Shown here: positions 6,902-34,475 of the stretch, piece by piece
Numbering within the stretch: the stretch's first letter is position 1
How the letters are laid out: the number at the start of each line of letters is the position of its first letter
DNA from: an uncultured Paracoccaceae bacterium
GTDB lineage: Bacteria; Pseudomonadota; Alphaproteobacteria; Rhodobacterales; Rhodobacteraceae
NCBI GenBank assembly: GCA_938016515.1
Contig: CALILP010000021.1
Coordinates: 1 to 37,837 of the forward strand
Reading direction: 5' to 3'
Length of the DNA stretch: 37,837 bases
Translations under genes and position numbers: made by a program
Notes under the pieces: generated by a model
What the model was told of the DNA's origin: nothing
The model's database searches: none
Seen by the model: only the letters and a program-made list of their open reading frames with translations

Positions 6902-8002
6902 TTACTGCCAGAATTCTTCATGAACGGTGGCTTCAAAATCTCCGTCCTGTGTGCGCACAGCCAGAACCGTGCCCGCATCCCAATGCGTCATGCGCACCAT
7001 GCCAATCGCGACGTTGACGCCGTAGTCAGGCGATTTCGCAGCAGAGGTGACCTGTCCAACCCGCTTCGTGCCCGCCATCAAAGGCCAAGCGCGATCACAG
7101 GGCGGCAAATCGCCTTCAATCGTGATTGGGCGAATTTGCTGAACCGGGCCTTCTTTGGCGACCCGCAGCAAAGCATCACGACCGACACACCCAATCGCTG
7201 TTTGGGTCGAACAGAACCGTCCCAGACCACATTCGTGTGGCGTGTTATCGCGGGTCATATCGTTGCCATAGGACAAAAGACCGCCCTCAATCCGCTCGAT
7301 CCCGTTCGGACAGCCTGCACGGACATCCAGATCTTCGCCTGCTTTGAACAGAGCATCCCACAAAGGCATGCCCATATCAGCGCCATCAACGTAAATCTCG
7401 AACCCGCCCTGCTTTGAGTAACCGGACCGCGCAATAACCAGCCAGCGGCCCTCGAATTCGAACCAGCTAAAGCGGAAGAACTTGATTGCGCGCACGGCCT
7501 CTCCAAAGACCCGCACCATCAGCTCTTCAGCTTTTGGACCCTGCACGGCAAGGGGGGAAATGTCAGGTTCATCAACCAGCACGTCCAAACGATACCCATG
7601 GGCCAAACCTTTGACCCAAAACAGCAAATCACTGTCAGCAATTGAAATCCACCAGCGGTCTTCGGCGAGCTTCAAAGCAACAGGATCGTTCAACATGCCA
7701 CCTGTCTCGTCCACGATAGGGACATAGTAGCACTGGCCGGGCAACATCCCCCGCAGATCGCGTGGGGTCAGCATTTGCATCAAACGGCCCGCGTCGGGAC
7801 CACGCAACTCGACTTGCCTTTCGACAGCCACATCCCAGACCTGCACATGATTTTTCAGGTGATGATAGTCGGCCTCAACACTTTCAAACACGGTTGCAAG
7901 CAACATCCGATTGTAAACCGTGAACGCTTTCGGGTTTGCCCGATCAACGCCTTCCGAAAAGGGGGTCCGTCGCAGACGACGGCTGGGTGAGATCATTGCC
8001 AT
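6902..8002 (-). CDS. dmdA: Dimethylsulfoniopropionate demethylase DmdA
   Basis: A 366-residue protein of the glycine-cleavage T-protein/aminomethyltransferase fold that moves a methyl group from DMSP to tetrahydrofolate, giving methylmercaptopropionate, the first step of the demethylation pathway. The sequence closely resembles the Ruegeria pomeroyi enzyme as I recall it. Examples are SRRLRRTPFSEGV near the N-terminus, HVQVWDVAVERQV, QCYYVPIVDETGGMLNDPVA, DISPLAVQGPKAEELM, SKQGGFEIYVDGADMGMPLW, RAGCPNGIERIEGGLLSYGND and DYGVNVAIGMV. These stretches separate DmdA from ordinary GcvT. It is one base from the DinB gene upstream and 51 bp from acuI downstream. The ATG at 8002 is the natural start. 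Confidence 0.93.
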   Translation of the reverse strand: MAMISPSRRLRRTPFSEGVDRANPKAFTVYNRMLLATVFESVEADYHHLKNHVQVWDVAVERQVELRGPDAGRLMQMLTPRDLRGMLPGQCYYVPIVDETGGMLNDPVALKLAEDRWWISIADSDLLFWVKGLAHGYRLDVLVDEPDISPLAVQGPKAEELMVRVFGEAVRAIKFFRFSWFEFEGRWLVIARSGYSKQGGFEIYVDGADMGMPLWDALFKAGEDLDVRAGCPNGIERIEGGLLSYGNDMTRDNTPHECGLGRFCSTQTAIGCVGRDALLRVAKEGPVQQIRPITIEGDLPPCDRAWPLMAGTKRVGQVTSAAKSPDYGVNVAIGMVRMTHWDAGTVLAVRTQDGDFEATVHEEFWQ

Positions 8003-8003
8003 C

Positions 8004-8507
8004 TCAGGTCTCCGGCATAAAAACCAAATCAGTGGCGTCAGGTTTCTGCCCCGCTGCTGTCAGCATGGCATGCAACTGACCCCGATGATGGGTCTGGTGG
8101 TTGAAGAAATGTGTAATGCAGGTGGCAAACGGACGGGTGACCTCGGCGTTGATGGACCCCGAGAACCACGTTATGTCGCCAACAAGATCAATCGCAGACA
8201 GATCATCCGCCCAAACACTGATCCGACCATCAAGACGGACACGTTCCGCAGCCCACTCAGCCGCGGTTGGCATGAAGGTCGTGCTTTTCGCGATCACATG
8301 GTCAGGGCCTTCGGAGCCTTCAAACCGGGCAAGCCACAGGGCATCACCCCACAGCAAATGGTTCAGCGTCCCGAAAATAGAACCAAAGAAAGAGCCTCGG
8401 TCTTTGGTCAGTTCAGTCTTGCTGAGGCCCTCGACACAGCGCCGCAGGCTTTTGTTTTGCCATGCGTTGTATTGCGCCATCGTCCGGCAATACTGCGGCG
8501 TGATCAC
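8004..8507 (-). CDS. DinB family protein
   Basis: A 167-residue four-helix-bundle protein of the DinB/YfiT superfamily. Candidate metal ligands are His50 (TLNHLLWGD) and His137/His141 in HFFNHQTHHRGQ, the usual three-histidine arrangement. Relatives include metal-dependent thiol S-transferases (bacillithiol, mycothiol) and the DinB-like domain of ergothioneine synthase; most members are uncharacterised. The start overlaps the DUF1326 stop by 4 bp and dmdA begins one base after its stop, so translation is probably coupled. A thiol-handling role alongside DMSP and methanethiol metabolism is an inference from this context, not shown by the sequence. Confidence 0.85.
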   Translation of the reverse strand: MITPQYCRTMAQYNAWQNKSLRRCVEGLSKTELTKDRGSFFGSIFGTLNHLLWGDALWLARFEGSEGPDHVIAKSTTFMPTAAEWAAERVRLDGRISVWADDLSAIDLVGDITWFSGSINAEVTRPFATCITHFFNHQTHHRGQLHAMLTAAGQKPDATDLVFMPET

Positions 8508-9211
8508 GGGCGTGGACCTTGCCAGTCAATCGGACAGATCTCGGCGGATTTACCGCCAAAGTCCCAAACGCGGCCATAGTCACGAATGCGGGACTTCGTA
8601 CCTTGTGCCGCGATGATATCAGGACCCATCCAGTACTTAGAGTTAGAGACCATCACAGGATGATCCTTGTCCTTGCCGGTAATCATCTCAATCTCGCCCT
8701 GGATCTTGCGGCCAATATAAATGCCGCGCTTCGTACCGTCGCGCACAATCTCGACCTTCTCACGCTCTGCACCGATGATCTCGGACACCAGCATCGTGAA
8801 CAGGCCTGTGGTTCCACCGGCCTGCCCGCTAAAGATTTTCAAAATGCCATTGTAGGCCTTTTGTGTCGATCTTTCATCGACATAAGCTGCGACCTTCCAG
8901 TTGCCTTCAGCCATCTTTCCGGGGATATCGACGAGCAATCCAACGTTCAGCCCACCAAGGTCTTCGCCCTCAAAGTGGCCCTCATCAATCGCAATGGCCA
9001 TCCATGCGTGGCAATATCCTTCAGTCGGAGGATGCGCACCAAGCGAGACGACACATGGGCAGAAGGTTGTGCAAGAGCAGTTCAGAAACAACTCTCCCTT
9101 GATTGCCCAATTCGTCGGCTGCAACTTGCGGCGCTTCGGGTTGTCCATCCGCTGATCAATACGCTGCGAAATCGCGATACGATCAGCAGGTTCTTTCTTT
9201 TTAACAGCCAT
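8504..9211 (-). CDS. DUF1326 domain-containing protein
   Basis: A 235-residue soluble protein. After a basic N-terminal tail (about 1-33) comes the DUF1326 signature WAIKGELFLNCSCTTFCPC (about 35-53), giving cysteines 45, 47, 51 and 53, with a further GYCHAW cysteine near 67. The later GKIQGE..MITGKDKDHP region resembles the rest of the family. The biochemical function is unknown; the clustered cysteines suggest metal or thiol binding. It lies 13 bp after the DUF2182 membrane protein, its frequent genomic partner, and overlaps DinB by 4 bp. A GGAAAGGG-like ribosome site precedes the 9211 start. Confidence 0.85.
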   Translation of the reverse strand: MAVKKKEPADRIAISQRIDQRMDNPKRRKLQPTNWAIKGELFLNCSCTTFCPCVVSLGAHPPTEGYCHAWMAIAIDEGHFEGEDLGGLNVGLLVDIPGKMAEGNWKVAAYVDERSTQKAYNGILKIFSGQAGGTTGLFTMLVSEIIGAEREKVEIVRDGTKRGIYIGRKIQGEIEMITGKDKDHPVMVSNSKYWMGPDIIAAQGTKSRIRDYGRVWDFGGKSAEICPIDWQGPRP

Positions 9212-9224
9212 CTGCGTCCCTTTC

Positions 9225-9980
9225 CTAAAGTGCCATCACAGCCACAACGAGGCCGGCAAGGATCAGCAAGACCCCCGCTGGCTTGGTGACACGATGCCCG
9301 ATCTCGGGCAGTTTCTCAAAGACCATAAACAAGGTTGCCAAACCCATCCATAACAGGCTCATCACACCGCCGACGAAGCCCAGCATCATAAAGCCCCAGC
9401 AGCAGCCAACGCAGAATGCGCCAAGGCCAAGGCCCATGCGCAAACCACCGCCAAATCCAGTCCGCCATTTGCCCAGAAAGTAATTCATCGGCGCATGACA
9501 AACGCCGTGACAAATCTCTTTCGCCCGCGTGAACTGAAAGGCACCGACAACGATCAGCAAGGCCGCAGCAAAGAACCCGGTGGTGGAGATGCCTAATCCA
9601 TCAATGACGTTGAAAGCAATCAACCCAAGCTGCACCAAGGTAATCAGCCCGGCGAAACCAACCCAAACGATGAAATACCCCAGCAAGACGCCGAGCCACC
9701 CTGCCCGCGTACCGTCCGCACTGATCATCAACCGCTCATAGTCCCGCAAGGTCGGCACCATCGTCGGCAGCATCATCGCCGCCATCATGATTGCCCACAT
9801 CGGGAATAACGCGCCAAATGTCGTCATCGGCATCATGTTCATGCCCACAGGACGGCCGATCATGTCCACGCCAGACATCCGCGCCATCATGAACATAAAG
9901 GCCCAAGCCGCGAGGATCGCTGCGAAAAAGGCCACCCAAAGGATGGCGCGTAGCGGAAACTGAACCGGAGATGTCGTCAC
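9225..9980 (-). CDS. DUF2182 domain-containing integral membrane protein
   Basis: A polytopic membrane protein of about 251 residues from the GTG at 9980. I prefer that start over the upstream TTG at 10016 because GGGAGG (9990-9995) is correctly spaced before it. The methionine-rich stretch PMWAIMMAAMMLPTM and the later CHGVCHAPMNYF and FCVGCCWGFMMLGF segments are the family signature. The methionines and cysteines look suited to soft-metal binding. Function is not established. It heads the minus-strand DUF2182-DUF1326-DinB-dmdA-acuI series and faces the GntR regulator across the operator at 10021-10046. Confidence 0.85.
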   Translation of the reverse strand: MTTSPVQFPLRAILWVAFFAAILAAWAFMFMMARMSGVDMIGRPVGMNMMPMTTFGALFPMWAIMMAAMMLPTMVPTLRDYERLMISADGTRAGWLGVLLGYFIVWVGFAGLITLVQLGLIAFNVIDGLGISTTGFFAAALLIVVGAFQFTRAKEICHGVCHAPMNYFLGKWRTGFGGGLRMGLGLGAFCVGCCWGFMMLGFVGGVMSLLWMGLATLFMVFEKLPEIGHRVTKPAGVLLILAGLVVAVMAL

Positions 9981-10020
9981 GCGCGTCACCCTCCCGTGCG
10001 ACTCAAGTGTTGCCAAGGAT

Positions 10021-10046
10021 ATGTCAGACGTTTAATTGTCTGACAA
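10021..10046. promoter_or_regulatory. Double-palindrome GntR-type operator between divergent genes
   Basis: The perfect 11-bp palindrome TTGTCTGACAA (10036-10046) is preceded by the near-palindrome ATGTCAGACGT (10021-10031). Outer arms TGTCAGAC and GTCTGACA also pair across the pair of sites. The TNGTC-N-GACNA pattern is that of FadR-subfamily GntR operators. Possible promoter elements overlap it: TTTAAT (10031-10036) towards the regulator and TTGTCA (10046-10041) towards DUF2182. This predicts autoregulation plus control of the dmdA operon. Confidence 0.7.
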
Positions 10047-10790
10047 ATGAAAATTGATCCCGACAGTTCAAAAGATCTTTCTGCCCAAATTGCTGCCGCC
10101 ATTCGGGACGCGATTATTTCCGGGAAACTACCGGTAGATGAGCGTCTTCCGTCAGAAACAGAGCTTTCTGAACAGTTCGAAGTGTCCCGCTCTACCGTCC
10201 GCGAAGCTCTCAAGCGTTTGGCCGCCCAATCGCTGATCCGTACCCAACGCGGTGCCACCGGGGGTGCCTTCGTCAACCGGCTCCGGTTCGAGGATGCCTA
10301 CGGTCAGCAGATCACCACATCGACGCTGCTTCTTTCGATGAATTCCGTCAGCTTTCGCACGGCCTGCGAAGCCCGCTATGCCTTGGAACGCGCCTGCGCC
10401 CCGCTTGCCGCAGAACGGCGCACCGCCGACCATCTTGCCACGATGCGTGCCGAGGCACACCGTCAGGCACAGCCCGGCCTGACCGACGAGGCATTTTGCG
10501 CCAGCGATGTCGCCTTCCACCGCGCGCTGGTGGATGCTGCCGCGAACCCCGTTTTGTCATACCAATTGGCGGGTGCAGTCGAGGCCATGCAGCCTTTGAT
10601 GAACATGATCACATTCAGCGCGCGGGATCGGGCAACGATCATCGACTTGCACACGCAAATCGCCAATGCGCTTGACCAGCACGACGCGGAAACCGCTGAC
10701 GCGCTGTTGGTGCAACTGTCAGATTATACCCAGAGCCTTGCAGAAAGCGTGTTCGCCGCCCGCGCCGCACAAAAAGCGGATGTCACGTAG
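10047..10790 (+). CDS. FadR/GntR family transcriptional regulator
   Basis: A 247-residue regulator. The N-terminal winged helix-turn-helix reads LPSETELSEQFEVSRSTVREALKRL (about 30-55, shown in part) and RTQRGATGGAFV forms the wing. The C-terminal all-helical FCD-type domain (about 95-235) contains the FRTACEARYALE and DVAFHRALVDAAANP segments that usually carry metal/ligand-binding residues. It diverges from the DUF2182-dmdA-acuI operon over a typical GntR operator that ends directly at its ATG. No ribosome site is visible, so the mRNA may be leaderless or nearly so. The ligand is unknown; a DMSP-pathway metabolite is a reasonable guess. A GntR regulator also neighbours dmdA in other roseobacters. 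Confidence 0.88.
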   Translation: MKIDPDSSKDLSAQIAAAIRDAIISGKLPVDERLPSETELSEQFEVSRSTVREALKRLAAQSLIRTQRGATGGAFVNRLRFEDAYGQQITTSTLLLSMNSVSFRTACEARYALERACAPLAAERRTADHLATMRAEAHRQAQPGLTDEAFCASDVAFHRALVDAAANPVLSYQLAGAVEAMQPLMNMITFSARDRATIIDLHTQIANALDQHDAETADALLVQLSDYTQSLAESVFAARAAQKADVT

Positions 10791-11252: not shown

Positions 11253-13205
11253 GGTCTGCGCCTCTTGTGCCGGCACATCCTGTTCGCGAATAGCCGACAT
11301 CTTGTCTGACATGATTTTTTCCCACTTCGGCAAGTTCTCCCGCACAAATTCCATGTATTCTGGGTTATCCAGCGGCCGCACACCTGGTTTATGCACGTTT
11401 GCGACGGTCACCATTGCCTCTCGATCCGTCTCTTTGAAAGCTTCAAGCATCTGCTCGGCGTGATGTTTGTTGACGCCCATCGCCTCAAACGCAGAGCGGC
11501 CCATCCGGGTGGCACTGTCAAACGTTTCGCGGATGATGTCGCGCGATCCTGCTGCCCAGAGACTATAAACATGGTCACGGTCCACAGCCCGCGTCACCAG
11601 ATGCACATGCGGGTAGGTCTGATGCACGTAGTGGGTCAGCTCTGTAATCTGATCTTTCCCATCAATGGCAATCACCAGCATCTTGGCATCCGCAATGCCC
11701 GCAGCGGCAAGCAAGTCTGGCCGGGTCGCATCGCCATAATAGGTGTGGAACCCAAAAGCGCGCATATTTTCAAGTTGCTTGGCTGAATAGTCGATGACCG
11801 TCGTCTTGAACCCGGCGGCAGACAACATCCGCTCGACGATGCCACCCACCCGGCCACGGCCAGCGACAATGATATGCCCGGATTCCTCTGGCATCTTATC
11901 GGCTTCCCGCTCTTGATCTTCGCTGTATTTGGGTGCGATCACCTTGTCATACAGAATGAACAACGCGGGCGTCAGCAACATCGACAGCGCCACGACCAAC
12001 AGCAATTGATCCGCAATAGCGGGTGGGATCACCTGATTGGCGACCGTAAACGACAACAACACAAAACCAAATTCACCGGCTTGCGCCAACCCTAGGGCTG
12101 CCAGCCATCTGTCCGTCCCGCGTAGGCCAAACAACGTTCCCAGCGCGTAGATCACGCCAGCTTTCAGTGCCATCAATCCAATCGTCAGCCCCACGATGGT
12201 GAAAAGGTTCGCGAACAGCAGATCAAAGTTGATCCCTGCCCCTACGGTCATAAAGAATACGCCTAACAGCAGGCCCTTGAACGGGTCGATATCGGATTCC
12301 AACTCGTGCCGATATTCGCTGTTCGCCAAAACAACCCCGGCAAGGAACGTCCCCAAGGCAGCGGATAGTCCCACCAGCGACATCAACAGCGCGATCCCGA
12401 CAACCATCATCAAGGCCGTCGCCGTGAACAACTCGCGCAGGTTCGCGGCAGAGATGAACCGGAAGACGGGGCGGGTCAGGTAAGAGCCCCCCAGAACCAC
12501 AAAACCAATTGCACCAATCGTGACCAGCGCCGTCTGCCAGCCGTTCAGCCCGTCTACCAGGCTCATCCCCGATCCATGATCATCGTGATCGTCATGACCA
12601 TCCGCGTGATCGTCTCCGTGGCCATCAGGGCTTTCGACATGCGTTGTTTCTGAGGCGTGTGGCGCAACATCCATCCCGAAATCCATCAAATCAGGCATCG
12701 CAAGTAGTGGGATCAGGGCAAGCATTGGGATCACGGCGATGTCCTGAAACAACAGGACGGAAAAACTGCCCTGCCCGCCATCAGACTTCATCAAGCCCTT
12801 TTCATTCAACGTTTGCAAAACGATAGCAGTCGAACTTAAAGCCAGAACAAGACCAATCGCCAAGGAAATCGACCACGGGATGCCAAAGACCAGACAGACC
12901 CCCATGACCAGCCCGGTTGTGATCACCACCTGTCCGCCACCAAGACCCAACAGCTGGCCCCGCATGCCCCACAGCAGTTTCGGCTCCAGCTCTAACCCCA
13001 CGAGGAACAGCATCATAACGACGCCAAACTCTGCGAAATGCTGGATCGACACGACGTCAACGTTCAGAAGTGCCAATATCGGGGAAATCACAATGCCAGC
13101 AATAAGATACCCCAGCACCGATCCCAGCCCCAGCCGGGTTGCAATTGGCACGGCCACCACCCCTGCAAACAAGAATACAAAAGCCAGCGCCAGAAAGTCG
13201 GTCAT
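11226..13205 (-). CDS. Kef-type monovalent cation:proton antiporter (CPA2) with RCK domain
   Basis: A 659-residue protein. Residues 1-430 form a CPA2 exchanger with about 12 membrane spans, including GLELEPKLLW, ALSSTAIVLQ and the LLFQDIAVIP segment with the ion-binding aspartate. Residues from about 440 form a Rossmann-type RCK/TrkA-N domain (HIIVAGRGRVGG, YYGDATRPDLL). It resembles KefB/KefC/YbaL potassium-proton systems. An unusual cytosolic or periplasmic loop at about 183-210 carries seven histidines and many aspartates. The ATG at 13205 has a GGGGGA ribosome site. The gene starts just before the divergent ssrA gene and ends overlapping a convergent small gene. Confidence 0.9.
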   Translation of the reverse strand: MTDFLALAFVFLFAGVVAVPIATRLGLGSVLGYLIAGIVISPILALLNVDVVSIQHFAEFGVVMMLFLVGLELEPKLLWGMRGQLLGLGGGQVVITTGLVMGVCLVFGIPWSISLAIGLVLALSSTAIVLQTLNEKGLMKSDGGQGSFSVLLFQDIAVIPMLALIPLLAMPDLMDFGMDVAPHASETTHVESPDGHGDDHADGHDDHDDHGSGMSLVDGLNGWQTALVTIGAIGFVVLGGSYLTRPVFRFISAANLRELFTATALMMVVGIALLMSLVGLSAALGTFLAGVVLANSEYRHELESDIDPFKGLLLGVFFMTVGAGINFDLLFANLFTIVGLTIGLMALKAGVIYALGTLFGLRGTDRWLAALGLAQAGEFGFVLLSFTVANQVIPPAIADQLLLVVALSMLLTPALFILYDKVIAPKYSEDQEREADKMPEESGHIIVAGRGRVGGIVERMLSAAGFKTTVIDYSAKQLENMRAFGFHTYYGDATRPDLLAAAGIADAKMLVIAIDGKDQITELTHYVHQTYPHVHLVTRAVDRDHVYSLWAAGSRDIIRETFDSATRMGRSAFEAMGVNKHHAEQMLEAFKETDREAMVTVANVHKPGVRPLDNPEYMEFVRENLPKWEKIMSDKMSAIREQDVPAQEAQTSDVEKQGG

Positions 13206-13249: not shown

Positions 13250-13612
13250 CAGCAACGCCCCTTGCGAGAGGCCCTCTGGTGCCTTATCTAAAAGAAGTCC
13301 TTCGGGACTATGGACATAAACGCGCTCGTAATAAGCGGATCGGACCCGGGGGCGGTACCCGGCGACTCCACCAAACACCCGGTTATTTGACGGTGGATGG
13401 GGTCGAAATAGGATCGACGAACGTCTAAAGGGGTTAGCTTTGTTTCGGTGAGTTACCACCGTTATCGGTACGATTAGTATAGTTGCAAATAACAACCATG
13501 CTCCAGTGGCAGTCGCAGCGTAAGCTGTGCCTAATACTGAAACTTTAACTCCTACGGTTTAGCGACCTTAGGCGGGGTTCGCAGGTACCTGGCAACAGAA
13601 ACCTGCACTTCA
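13250..13612 (+). ncRNA. ssrA: Transfer-messenger RNA, circularly permuted two-piece alpha type
   Basis: Rescues stalled ribosomes and tags nascent proteins. The acceptor piece comes first and ends in CGACTCCACCA at 13373. It includes a 5-7-5 T-arm (CCGGG, loop GGCGGTA, CCCGG) and a UUCG-capped hairpin (13296-13309). After a 25-nt intervening segment the coding piece begins GGGGTCG (13399-13405), which pairs with CGACTCC to make a 7-bp acceptor stem with one G-U pair. The tag frame is at 13485-13523. A hairpin GCAGGT...ACCTGC lies near the 3' end. This 3'-before-5' order is characteristic of alphaproteobacterial tmRNA. Outer boundaries are approximate; the internal landmarks are exact. Confidence 0.92.
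13485..13523 (+). other. tmRNA tag reading frame
   Basis: From the resume codon GCA to TAA the frame reads ANNNHAPVAVAA followed by stop. With the charged alanine the tag is A-ANNNHAPVAVAA. The C-terminal VAA end is the expected ClpX degradation signal and the asparagine-rich start matches the usual AND/ANN opening contacted by SspB. Confidence 0.92.
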
Positions 13613-13717
13613 TTCCCCATCAGACTGTTGCTTCAGGCTCTTTTTGGACCAAGCCTTAGCACCGCATGCCCAATATTCGTGCTTGCGTGGTTACAGACCG
13701 ATGCGCAAAGTACGGTA

Positions 13718-31058: not shown

Positions 31059-31727
31059 TTATGCGGCGGTCATTTGCCCAACCAAACCCGCAAACAAGGG
31101 CTGACCATCGGTTCCACCGTGACCGGCATCCACAGCGCGCTCTGGATGCGGCATCATGCCCAACACACGCCTGTTTTCCGACAGAATCCCTGCGATATCA
31201 GCGACGGACCCGTTAGGGTTGTGCGTGTAGGTAAATGCGACGCGATCCTCGCCCTGCAAACGGGCCAGCGTGTCGGCATCAGCGGTGTAGTTCCCGTCGT
31301 GATGCGCGATGGGGTTTTGGATGATCTGACCTGCGGCATATTGCTCTGTAAAAGCAGAGGCTTGGGTCTCAACCTTGAGGCCAGATGTCTTGCATAAGAA
31401 CTTAAGGCCAGCATTGCGCATCAAAGCCCCGGGCAGCAGGCCAGTTTCAGTCAAAACCTGAAAACCATTGCACACGCCTAGCGCGTAGCCACCGCGTTCC
31501 ACATGGGAAACAATCGCCTTGGAAACAGGGGATTGGGCGGCAATCGCGCCACAACGCAGGTAGTCACCAAAAGAGAAACCCCCAGGCACTGCGACAAAAT
31601 CGACACCATCTGGTAGATCGGCATCTTTATGCCACACCATCGTGACGTCAGCGCCAGCAGCTTTCAAAGCAACTGCCATATCTCGGTCACAATTGGAGCC
31701 GGGGAAGACAATGACCGCAGCTTTCAT
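31059..31727 (-). CDS. purQ: Phosphoribosylformylglycinamidine synthase subunit PurQ
   Basis: A 222-residue glutaminase subunit that releases ammonia for the FGAM synthase complex with PurL and PurS in purine synthesis. [16 protein letters not shown] at the start, the [13 protein letters not shown] oxyanion region, nucleophile cysteine in LGVCNGFQ, and [10 protein letters not shown] with the catalytic His/Glu are all present. Its ATG shares a base with the purS TGA (TGATG). The longer frame from 31784 lies inside purS and is rejected. Confidence 0.95.
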
Positions 31728-31957
31728 CACAGAACCTCGATTCGATAGCTTTCGATCACCGTATTCGCGAGCAGTTTTTCGCACATCTGACCGATGGTGG
31801 CCTCATCTGTGCCGTCCGCCAGATCCAGCTCGATCACTTTGCCCTGACGCACGTCATTGACGCCTTCAAACCCCAAAGACCCCAGCGCGTGCTGCACGGC
31901 AGCTCCCTGCGGGTCCAGCACCCCGGTCTTCAACATCACATGTACACGGGCTTTCAT
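31727..31957 (-). CDS. purS: Phosphoribosylformylglycinamidine synthase subunit PurS
   Basis: A 76-residue small subunit of the three-part FGAM synthase; it bridges PurQ and Pur[21 protein letters not shown] and [15 protein letters not shown] are typical. AAGGAC precedes ATG 31957. It lies 58 bp after purC and is fused end-to-start with purQ. Confidence 0.93.
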
Positions 31958-32015: not shown

Positions 32016-32780
32016 TCAGTTAATCAAGGTTGGTTTTGTCGGGGCATGGGTCACATTCGAGGGCAGAACACCCAACCGCCGGGCCACTTCGGTATAGGCA
32101 TCTGCCAAATCACCCAAATCCTGCCGGAACACGTCTTTGTCCAGCTTGCGACCACTTTCGATATCCCACAAACGGCAGCTATCAGGGCTGATTTCATCAG
32201 CAACGATCAGGCGCGGGAATTCGTTGTCCCAGACCCGGCCAATTTCGATCTTGAAGTCGACCAGCTGAATTCCGACGCCATACATGACACCAGACAGGAA
32301 ATCATTCACCCGCAACGCAATCGCGACGATATCATCCATATCCTGCTGCGAGGCCTAACCGAATGCCGCGATATATTCCTCGGGAACCAAAGGATCACCA
32401 AGGCTGTCGTCTTTATAGGAAAATTCCACAATCGGACGCGGCAACCGTGTGCCTTCGTCCATCCCCATGCGCTTGGCCATCGTGCCGGCGGCAAAGTTGC
32501 GCACGATCACTTCCAACGGAATGATCTCGACCTGACGGATCAACTGCTCGCGCATGTTCAAACGCTTAAGAAAGTGGGTCGGGACACCAACTTGGCTAAG
32601 GCCATTCATAAAGAATTCCGACAGGCGGTTGTTCAAGACACCCTTGCCATCGATGGTCGCACGTTTTTCAGCGTTAAAGGCTGTCGCATCGTCTTTGAAG
32701 TACTGCACCAACGTCCCCGGCTCGGGGCCTTCATACAGAATTTTTGCTTTGCCTTCGTAGATTTTCTTGCGACGCGCCAT
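32016..32780 (-). pseudogene. purC: purC (SAICAR synthetase) with an in-frame TAG
   Basis: The full 254-codon frame matches PurC, which joins aspartate to CAIR in purine synthesis. Codons 1-141 read [20 protein letters not shown] through [16 protein letters not shown]; then codon 142 is TAG (32357-32355); the same frame resumes [19 protein letters not shown] and continues through [15 protein letters not shown] to a normal C-terminus. Relatives have FGW at this point, so TGG to TAG is a single G-to-A change. No frameshift is involved and the rest is intact. An ATG 12 bases after the TAG could restart translation but has no ribosome site. A sequencing error, a recent mutation or suppression are all possible. 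purS follows after 58 bp. Confidence 0.9.
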
Positions 32781-32924: not shown

Positions 32925-34475
32925 TCAGGCCGCAGATTGCGGTGCCGCATTGCTTTGCGTTTCGACGTCAGCAGCATCAACAGGCAAACCAGCCAGCCGG
33001 ATCAGACTGCTCAGCTCCCAGCCAGTGCCGCCGGTATCGACGTTGTCTTCGCCAGACCGCAGCAAAGGATCATCATCGGGCGTCCAACAGGGCCGCAGGT
33101 TCAAATACGAATGCGGATCGCCTTTCAGCAGTCCTGCAAAGGTCGCAGCCACAATCGTAGATCCCACTTTGCCAAGCGCTTCACCCCCGGCAATTTCCCC
33201 TTCCTTGAGGATGTAGTACCACAGCGCGTCTGGCTCATTTGCGTCCAGTTCAATCGGATCAATGCACCATTTACGGGCCACATCAGTGCCAGACGGCAGA
33301 TCAAAGCTGATCCCGCGCTTAAGGTTGCGGAATGCCAGAATGTTCAGCGGATCATCCGGTGACATGCCCTCGAACAGATGCGCCAGGGCATTGGACAACT
33401 TCGCGTCGATCTTGCGGGCGCGCTGCGGAAACGGCCCAGCCGAGGTGGTCATGTTCAAGAACCAATCCCATTGGATCGTATTGGACGCCTTCATTGGCCG
33501 GAAGCCCCGCAGATCATCGGGATCATCAGCACCGGTATTGTCAAAGATCGGGGCATTCACCCCAAACCCACGGTGCGGATGGTTTGTCTGATAGCTGTTG
33601 CGGACCATGGAATGGCCAAACCGATATGCGGCGACCGAAAACTCGACCGGCATGAACGGCTGGTGCTTCCAGCTGTAGACGTCTTTCAAGCCAAGCTCCC
33701 ACCGCTTGCGGCCATCGGCGGTCGTCTCAAGCGACAAGGCCGCCGCCCGCGTATCCGCGTCACATATGCGGCGGATAAAGTCATGCCAGACAATCCACTG
33801 ATACAGCCACCGCAAGGTATCGCGCGCACTTTCAAACGGATGATCGTGACCCGCAGCCTCTGCGCGATCCACCAGCGTGTTATGGGCCAGCAAGAAAGCC
33901 AGTTGCAGCTGACTGACCATCGCGTTTTCATCGTTGCGCATATCGCCGATCAAAGCGCGACCAGCAGCGTTACGGGGCAAATCCCGCAACCCAGAGCCTG
34001 CAACATTGCCAATCAGCATCCGGCCTGTACCGTCATACATATACGGCTGGTCCTCCGGGCCACGCCCATAGACATTGTCCAGATCAAACCGCGGCGTTCG
34101 AAAGTTCAGCAACGCATTCGGATCGTTCTTGCGGGCCAAGCTCGACATCGGATCAAAGGTCAGATCGTGATCCACGAACTGACCAAAATACGTGTAAGCT
34201 GCGGGAATGCCCGTGCTTGGATCACCGGCGTCGCCGGTGGTAAACCGGGCGTCCAGATCCGCAACCTTTGCCGCATCTGTCAGATCGGCAGGCAAAAGAC
34301 CCGGTTCTTCCAGCATCAGGTTCTGGGCGATATCAAGCAGGTAATCATCAACTTGATCCGGACCCACAGGTGGGGTCCAAGGTGGAAGATCAGGACAAAT
34401 ACGCCCAAACGGTCCTTGGTAAAAAGGGGATCGCGGGGCTGTCACGTCAATTGCGTGACCCTTACCATGTGCCAT
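32925..34475 (-). CDS. Animal-type heme peroxidase family protein
   Basis: A 516-residue protein of the peroxidase-cyclooxygenase superfamily (peroxidasin/myeloperoxidase-like bacterial group). TYFGQFVDHDLTFDP (about 94-108) carries the distal histidine and calcium-site aspartate, GDMRNDENAMVSQLQLAF the helix that follows, and AAYRFGHSMVRNSYQ the proximal heme-binding histidine. No signal peptide or calcium-repeat region is seen, so export is uncertain. Substrate unknown; halide or phenol oxidation is typical. AGGAG precedes ATG 34475. It separates purC from the ATPase zeta gene, which are often neighbours in relatives. Confidence 0.92.
   Translation of the reverse strand: MAHGKGHAIDVTAPRSPFYQGPFGRICPDLPPWTPPVGPDQVDDYLLDIAQNLMLEEPGLLPADLTDAAKVADLDARFTTGDAGDPSTGIPAAYTYFGQFVDHDLTFDPMSSLARKNDPNALLNFRTPRFDLDNVYGRGPEDQPYMYDGTGRMLIGNVAGSGLRDLPRNAAGRALIGDMRNDENAMVSQLQLAFLLAHNTLVDRAEAAGHDHPFESARDTLRWLYQWIVWHDFIRRICDADTRAAALSLETTADGRKRWELGLKDVYSWKHQPFMPVEFSVAAYRFGHSMVRNSYQTNHPHRGFGVNAPIFDNTGADDPDDLRGFRPMKASNTIQWDWFLNMTTSAGPFPQRARKIDAKLSNALAHLFEGMSPDDPLNILAFRNLKRGISFDLPSGTDVARKWCIDPIELDANEPDALWYYILKEGEIAGGEALGKVGSTIVAATFAGLLKGDPHSYLNLRPCWTPDDDPLLRSGEDNVDTGGTGWELSSLIRLAGLPVDAADVETQSNAAPQSAA

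Follow-up and report, generated by a model that had tools for sequence, protein, structure and literature searches.

A lone in-frame TAG in purC of a Yoonia-like bacterium: a probable sequence error or very recent mutation

In the stretch of DNA analysed here (37,837 nucleotides, hereafter the window), an in-frame TAG interrupts purC at codon 142, which in all likelihood reflects an error in the sequence or a mutation of very recent date rather than a novel reading of the genetic code. The source is a Yoonia-like bacterium whose genome comprises 227 contigs with a total of 3,434,689 bases (completeness 81.4%, contamination 2.39%); the window is its contig C21, and the fragmentation suggests a metagenome bin. 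The explanation we favour, with a probability of roughly 60%, is that the TAG would be due either to an erroneous base in the consensus or to an allele of a minority strain that entered the draft consensus; purC would then be functional in the population and the stop would not be a working feature of the organism. We infer a base that is wrong or unrepresentative. The lesion is isolated, the rest of purC is intact, the genome is a draft and TAG keeps its normal meaning. A single stop in a draft gene that is flawless elsewhere is compatible with a base error, with a minority allele or with a mutation so young that no decay has followed.

The purC gene lies on the minus strand, starting from an ATG at nt 32780, with a frame of 254 codons ending at a TGA (nt 32018–32016). 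The plus strand reads CTA at nt 32355–32357, hence TAG on the minus strand, and apart from this codon the frame is free of stops. Codons 1–141 (nt 32358–32780, minus strand), the open stretch ahead of the TAG, match positions 5–151 of TIGR00081 (E = 2.1e-41), and codons 143–254 with the TGA (nt 32016–32354, minus strand) match positions 155–275 (E = 5e-17). The two halves do so separately, in register and without a change of frame; each alone stays below the curated cut-off of 189.9 bits (142.2 and 62.2 bits, respectively), whereas with the stop read as a residue a full-length match of 219.8 bits is obtained. Both the reading of the sequence and the matches of the two halves thus confirm what the preliminary description had claimed, a TAG at purC codon 142 with the frame intact on either side. 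The sequence surrounding the TAG contains no ambiguous letters, which counts against a base error, and such an error is not easier to predict here than a real mutation. The unambiguous codon is in favour of the alternative of a real and recent TAG, with the strain having a truncated 141-residue PurC without SAICAR synthase activity and importing purines from its surroundings. We regard this as possible and give it less weight than an error or a minority allele.

In related loci, codon 142 was TGG (Trp), from which TAG differs by one base, in 109 out of 109 aligned cases with the window's own locus excluded; the alignment held 110 loci including the window's own, and some genomes are possibly counted twice. 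The tryptophan had been described as conserved, which stands for these relatives but not universally, since among solved PurC structures the corresponding position is occupied by Trp in 3kre, by Leu in 2ywv and by Ala in 3nua. The best named match of PurC was Yoonia ponticola (88%), and the 80 loci kept spanned 80–89% and were mostly Rhodobacteraceae judging by their titles. Within the genus, the best full-length protein match had 90% identity, and one partial match had 92%; at the DNA level, purC was at most 80% identical to the 12 nearest sequences compared. Among the genus genomes and these sequences, no other genome of the same species was found, and the allele being known from one genome of the species counts against a real recent null.

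Across the 55 other genus genomes, no stop was found inside the match to purC; two of these genomes gave partial matches, both spanning codon 142. Close relatives whose PurC is normally split into two polypeptides at this point, a circumstance contemplated in the preliminary description, are therefore absent from this set. When the window's own genome is included, exactly one PurC match was present in each of the 56 genus genomes, with an internal stop in the window's only. In a further sample of 59 other genomes, of which 35 belong to the genus, purC was matched in 55 and no match had an internal stop, and in a search of the family the internal stop was seen in the window's row alone, among the matches listed.

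The part of purC following the stop is undecayed. Conservation was evaluated on 107 distinct sequences including the window's own, a column being considered conserved when identical in at least 95% of the other 106. The window's purC deviates at none of the 93 conserved columns before codon 142 and at none of the 66 after it, while the other sequences deviate on average at 0.51 columns before and 0.20 after. Taken alone this is a weak test, because 88 of the 106 other sequences likewise show no deviation after codon 142. The median dN between the window's purC and its 12 nearest sequences was 0.078 upstream of the stop and 0.087 downstream of it, to be compared with 0.055 and 0.100 among those 12 sequences themselves, and on both sides of the stop the window's values are within the range found among relatives. 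Several pairs had synonymous distances that were saturated or undefined (given as -1), and for this reason our claims rest on dN and on the conserved columns, not on dN/dS. To judge from these comparisons, there is no trace past the stop of selection having been lost, and an old pseudogene was rejected on account of the undecayed 3' part. The zero deviations and the ordinary dN argue for an error or a minority allele, but the lack of decay is equally expected from a recent real mutation and the 88 undeviating sequences weaken the argument. Conversely, the absence of relaxed selection past the stop speaks against a real null, although a recent mutation would leave none.

Searching the assembly, which is 81.4% complete, by protein and with the broad SAICAR_synt model revealed no second purC, the model matching one place only. 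The search for an additional copy proposed in advance was thus negative within that assembly, a result in line both with an error or minority allele and with a recent null. In the family search, 5 of 295 genomes were without a purC match, and the match was absent from 2 of the 259 genomes with completeness of at least 90% and contamination of at most 5%, which is also in favour of a recent null. These genomes may be natural purine auxotrophs or may simply have gaps. About 28 of the 290 family genomes with a match showed two or three by hand count, representing second genes or split matches. With about a fifth of the genome missing, a second intact purC lying in the missing part, by which the lesion would be tolerated, is conceivable; the multiple matches in the family agree with it. 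However, each of the 55 other genus genomes has a single PurC match and the broad model finds one place in the assembly, and we consider a hidden copy improbable.

As to the meaning of TAG, in a 557-kb genome sample that includes the window this codon terminates 84 out of 365 ORFs with 200 or more codons (the ORFs are largely non-overlapping and some may be chance ORFs). In the window, it closes 6 of the 34 ORFs listed, and these 6 include the front part of purC. Release factor 1 (prfA) is present and open, without an internal stop. None of the 33 tRNAs found has a CUA anticodon, in a set that is incomplete because no tRNA called Glu, Tyr or Ile is among them, so that a suppressor tRNA may have been missed. 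A Trp-CCA tRNA is included in the 33, and a tRNA-Leu with the anticodon UAG was rejected as a suppressor, as it reads CUA codons. Recoding of TAG was rejected on the stop usage, the open release factor 1 and the lack of a CUA anticodon among the 33 tRNAs, in agreement with the earlier view that reassignment is unlikely; the accompanying suggestion of a suppressor tRNA gave no candidate within this incomplete set. The case resembles UAG recoding and natural amber suppression in having an in-frame UAG within a conserved gene, but it is unlike them in that TAG is a widespread stop, release factor 1 is present and no CUA anticodon was seen among the 33 tRNAs. The normal use of TAG as a stop and the open release factor 1 argue for an error or a minority allele.

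The same observations bear on read-through, namely that UAG is read by a suppressor tRNA or by leaky termination to give full-length PurC. Leu and Ala at this position in two other PurC proteins suggest that a substitution is possibly tolerated, and the set of tRNAs is incomplete; the absence of a CUA anticodon from that set, the open release factor 1 and the frequency of TAG at the end of long ORFs are all contrary to it, the last because strong suppression would be expected to lengthen many proteins. Read-through is in our opinion more improbable than a hidden second copy. Still lower odds are given to the fuller proposal in which the base is real and fixed and read-through yields enough full-length PurC while UAG is otherwise a normal stop.

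An in-frame ATG at nt 32339, six codons past the TAG, opens an ORF of 107 residues, and would allow PurC to be made as two chains, the second starting at this codon. The methionine is an ordinary residue at this position (58 of the 109 relatives have M and 51 have L) and an AGGA is placed one base from the ATG, a spacing too short for the usual ribosome site. As an internal purC stop is also lacking in all 55 other genus genomes, we judge a split PurC the least probable of the explanations considered. The positive support for read-through and split chains is limited to the tolerant site and the in-frame ATG.

Stops flanked by coding-like sequence were also scanned for in the 557-kb sample, corresponding to approximately 16% of the genome. 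The lax scan returned 40 candidates over all three stop codons, the window's purC included, and recovered 1229 of 1825 simulated stops; as the latter were placed in long ORFs at a distance from either end, this figure overstates the true reach. All 40 candidates were read by eye in a context of 45 residues and 16 stops in a longer one. Many were ordinary gene ends with a start codon nearby, and among the 39 candidates besides purC none was clearly a solitary stop in a gene that is sound elsewhere, with a few ambiguous by eye. In the sample, purC is thus set apart by having one lesion and being otherwise sound, in a scan that misses at least a third of such lesions and with a window that was selected because of the purC stop. 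The result for the other 39 candidates is in favour of an error or a minority allele, and the limited reach of the scan counts against it.

Clear interruptions were found in two other places. On contig C12 (L154), several in-frame stops and frame changes occur at about nt 8000–10300 of the minus strand, in nos-like remains that we take to resemble nosD, nosF and nosY. Of five pieces submitted to a homology test, one matched ApbE (PF02424), one matched the ABC transporter family (PF00005) and three had no match; the region is probably a decaying nitrous-oxide reductase cluster. Its decay indicates that true loss-of-function changes occur in this genome, which counts against the error reading. 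Near the end of contig C9 (L151), at about nt 11450–11970, a short frame with two stops is probably a gene remnant.

The other purine genes examined are open. Downstream of purC, purS (nt 31727–31957, minus strand) scores above cut-off with NF004630 and TIGR00302, and the following purQ (nt 31059–31727, minus strand) with NF002957 and TIGR01737. Elsewhere in the genome, purL, purB, purH and purF are all open. A dead purine pathway was rejected for these six genes, purD, purM, purN, purE and purK being outside the set. The open genes argue for an error or a minority allele and against a recent null, and the former is further favoured by the draft state of the genome, with its 227 contigs and 81.4% completeness.

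Among the four options initially put forward, a wrong base and a purine auxotroph by recent null remain, whereas for the other two no second purC and no CUA tRNA were found in this incomplete genome. The lone stop shares with ordinary nonsense lesions and draft base errors the one-base codon change, the single copy found, the intact rest of the gene and the lack of any compensating machinery found, and no feature was found that sets it apart from them. Literature matches listed for purC nonsense or amber mutations were unrelated by their titles and the beginning of their abstracts. Nothing was found on premature stops, assembly errors and pseudogenes in metagenome-assembled genomes, nor on purine auxotrophy in Yoonia. 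For in-frame stops and sequencing error in metagenome assemblies, the titles and opening lines retrieved concerned ciliates only, and for bacterial UAG read-through or natural suppressor tRNAs in essential genes those of the matches listed had nothing on this case. As it stands, the purC stop is of little import, and when an incomplete draft shows a single stop within a conserved gene, this should not be taken as auxotrophy or recoding. Were the base real and the organism able to grow without purines, the stop would be an example from nature of amber read-through that the cell needs.

Two further features of the window were recorded. Next upstream of purC and on the same strand, nt 32925–34475 encode a protein with an animal-type haem peroxidase domain (PF03098). 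A tmRNA with the tag ANNNHAPVAVAA is located at nt 13281–13614 and was starred by ARAGORN, an asterisk presumably denoting the permuted, two-piece type.
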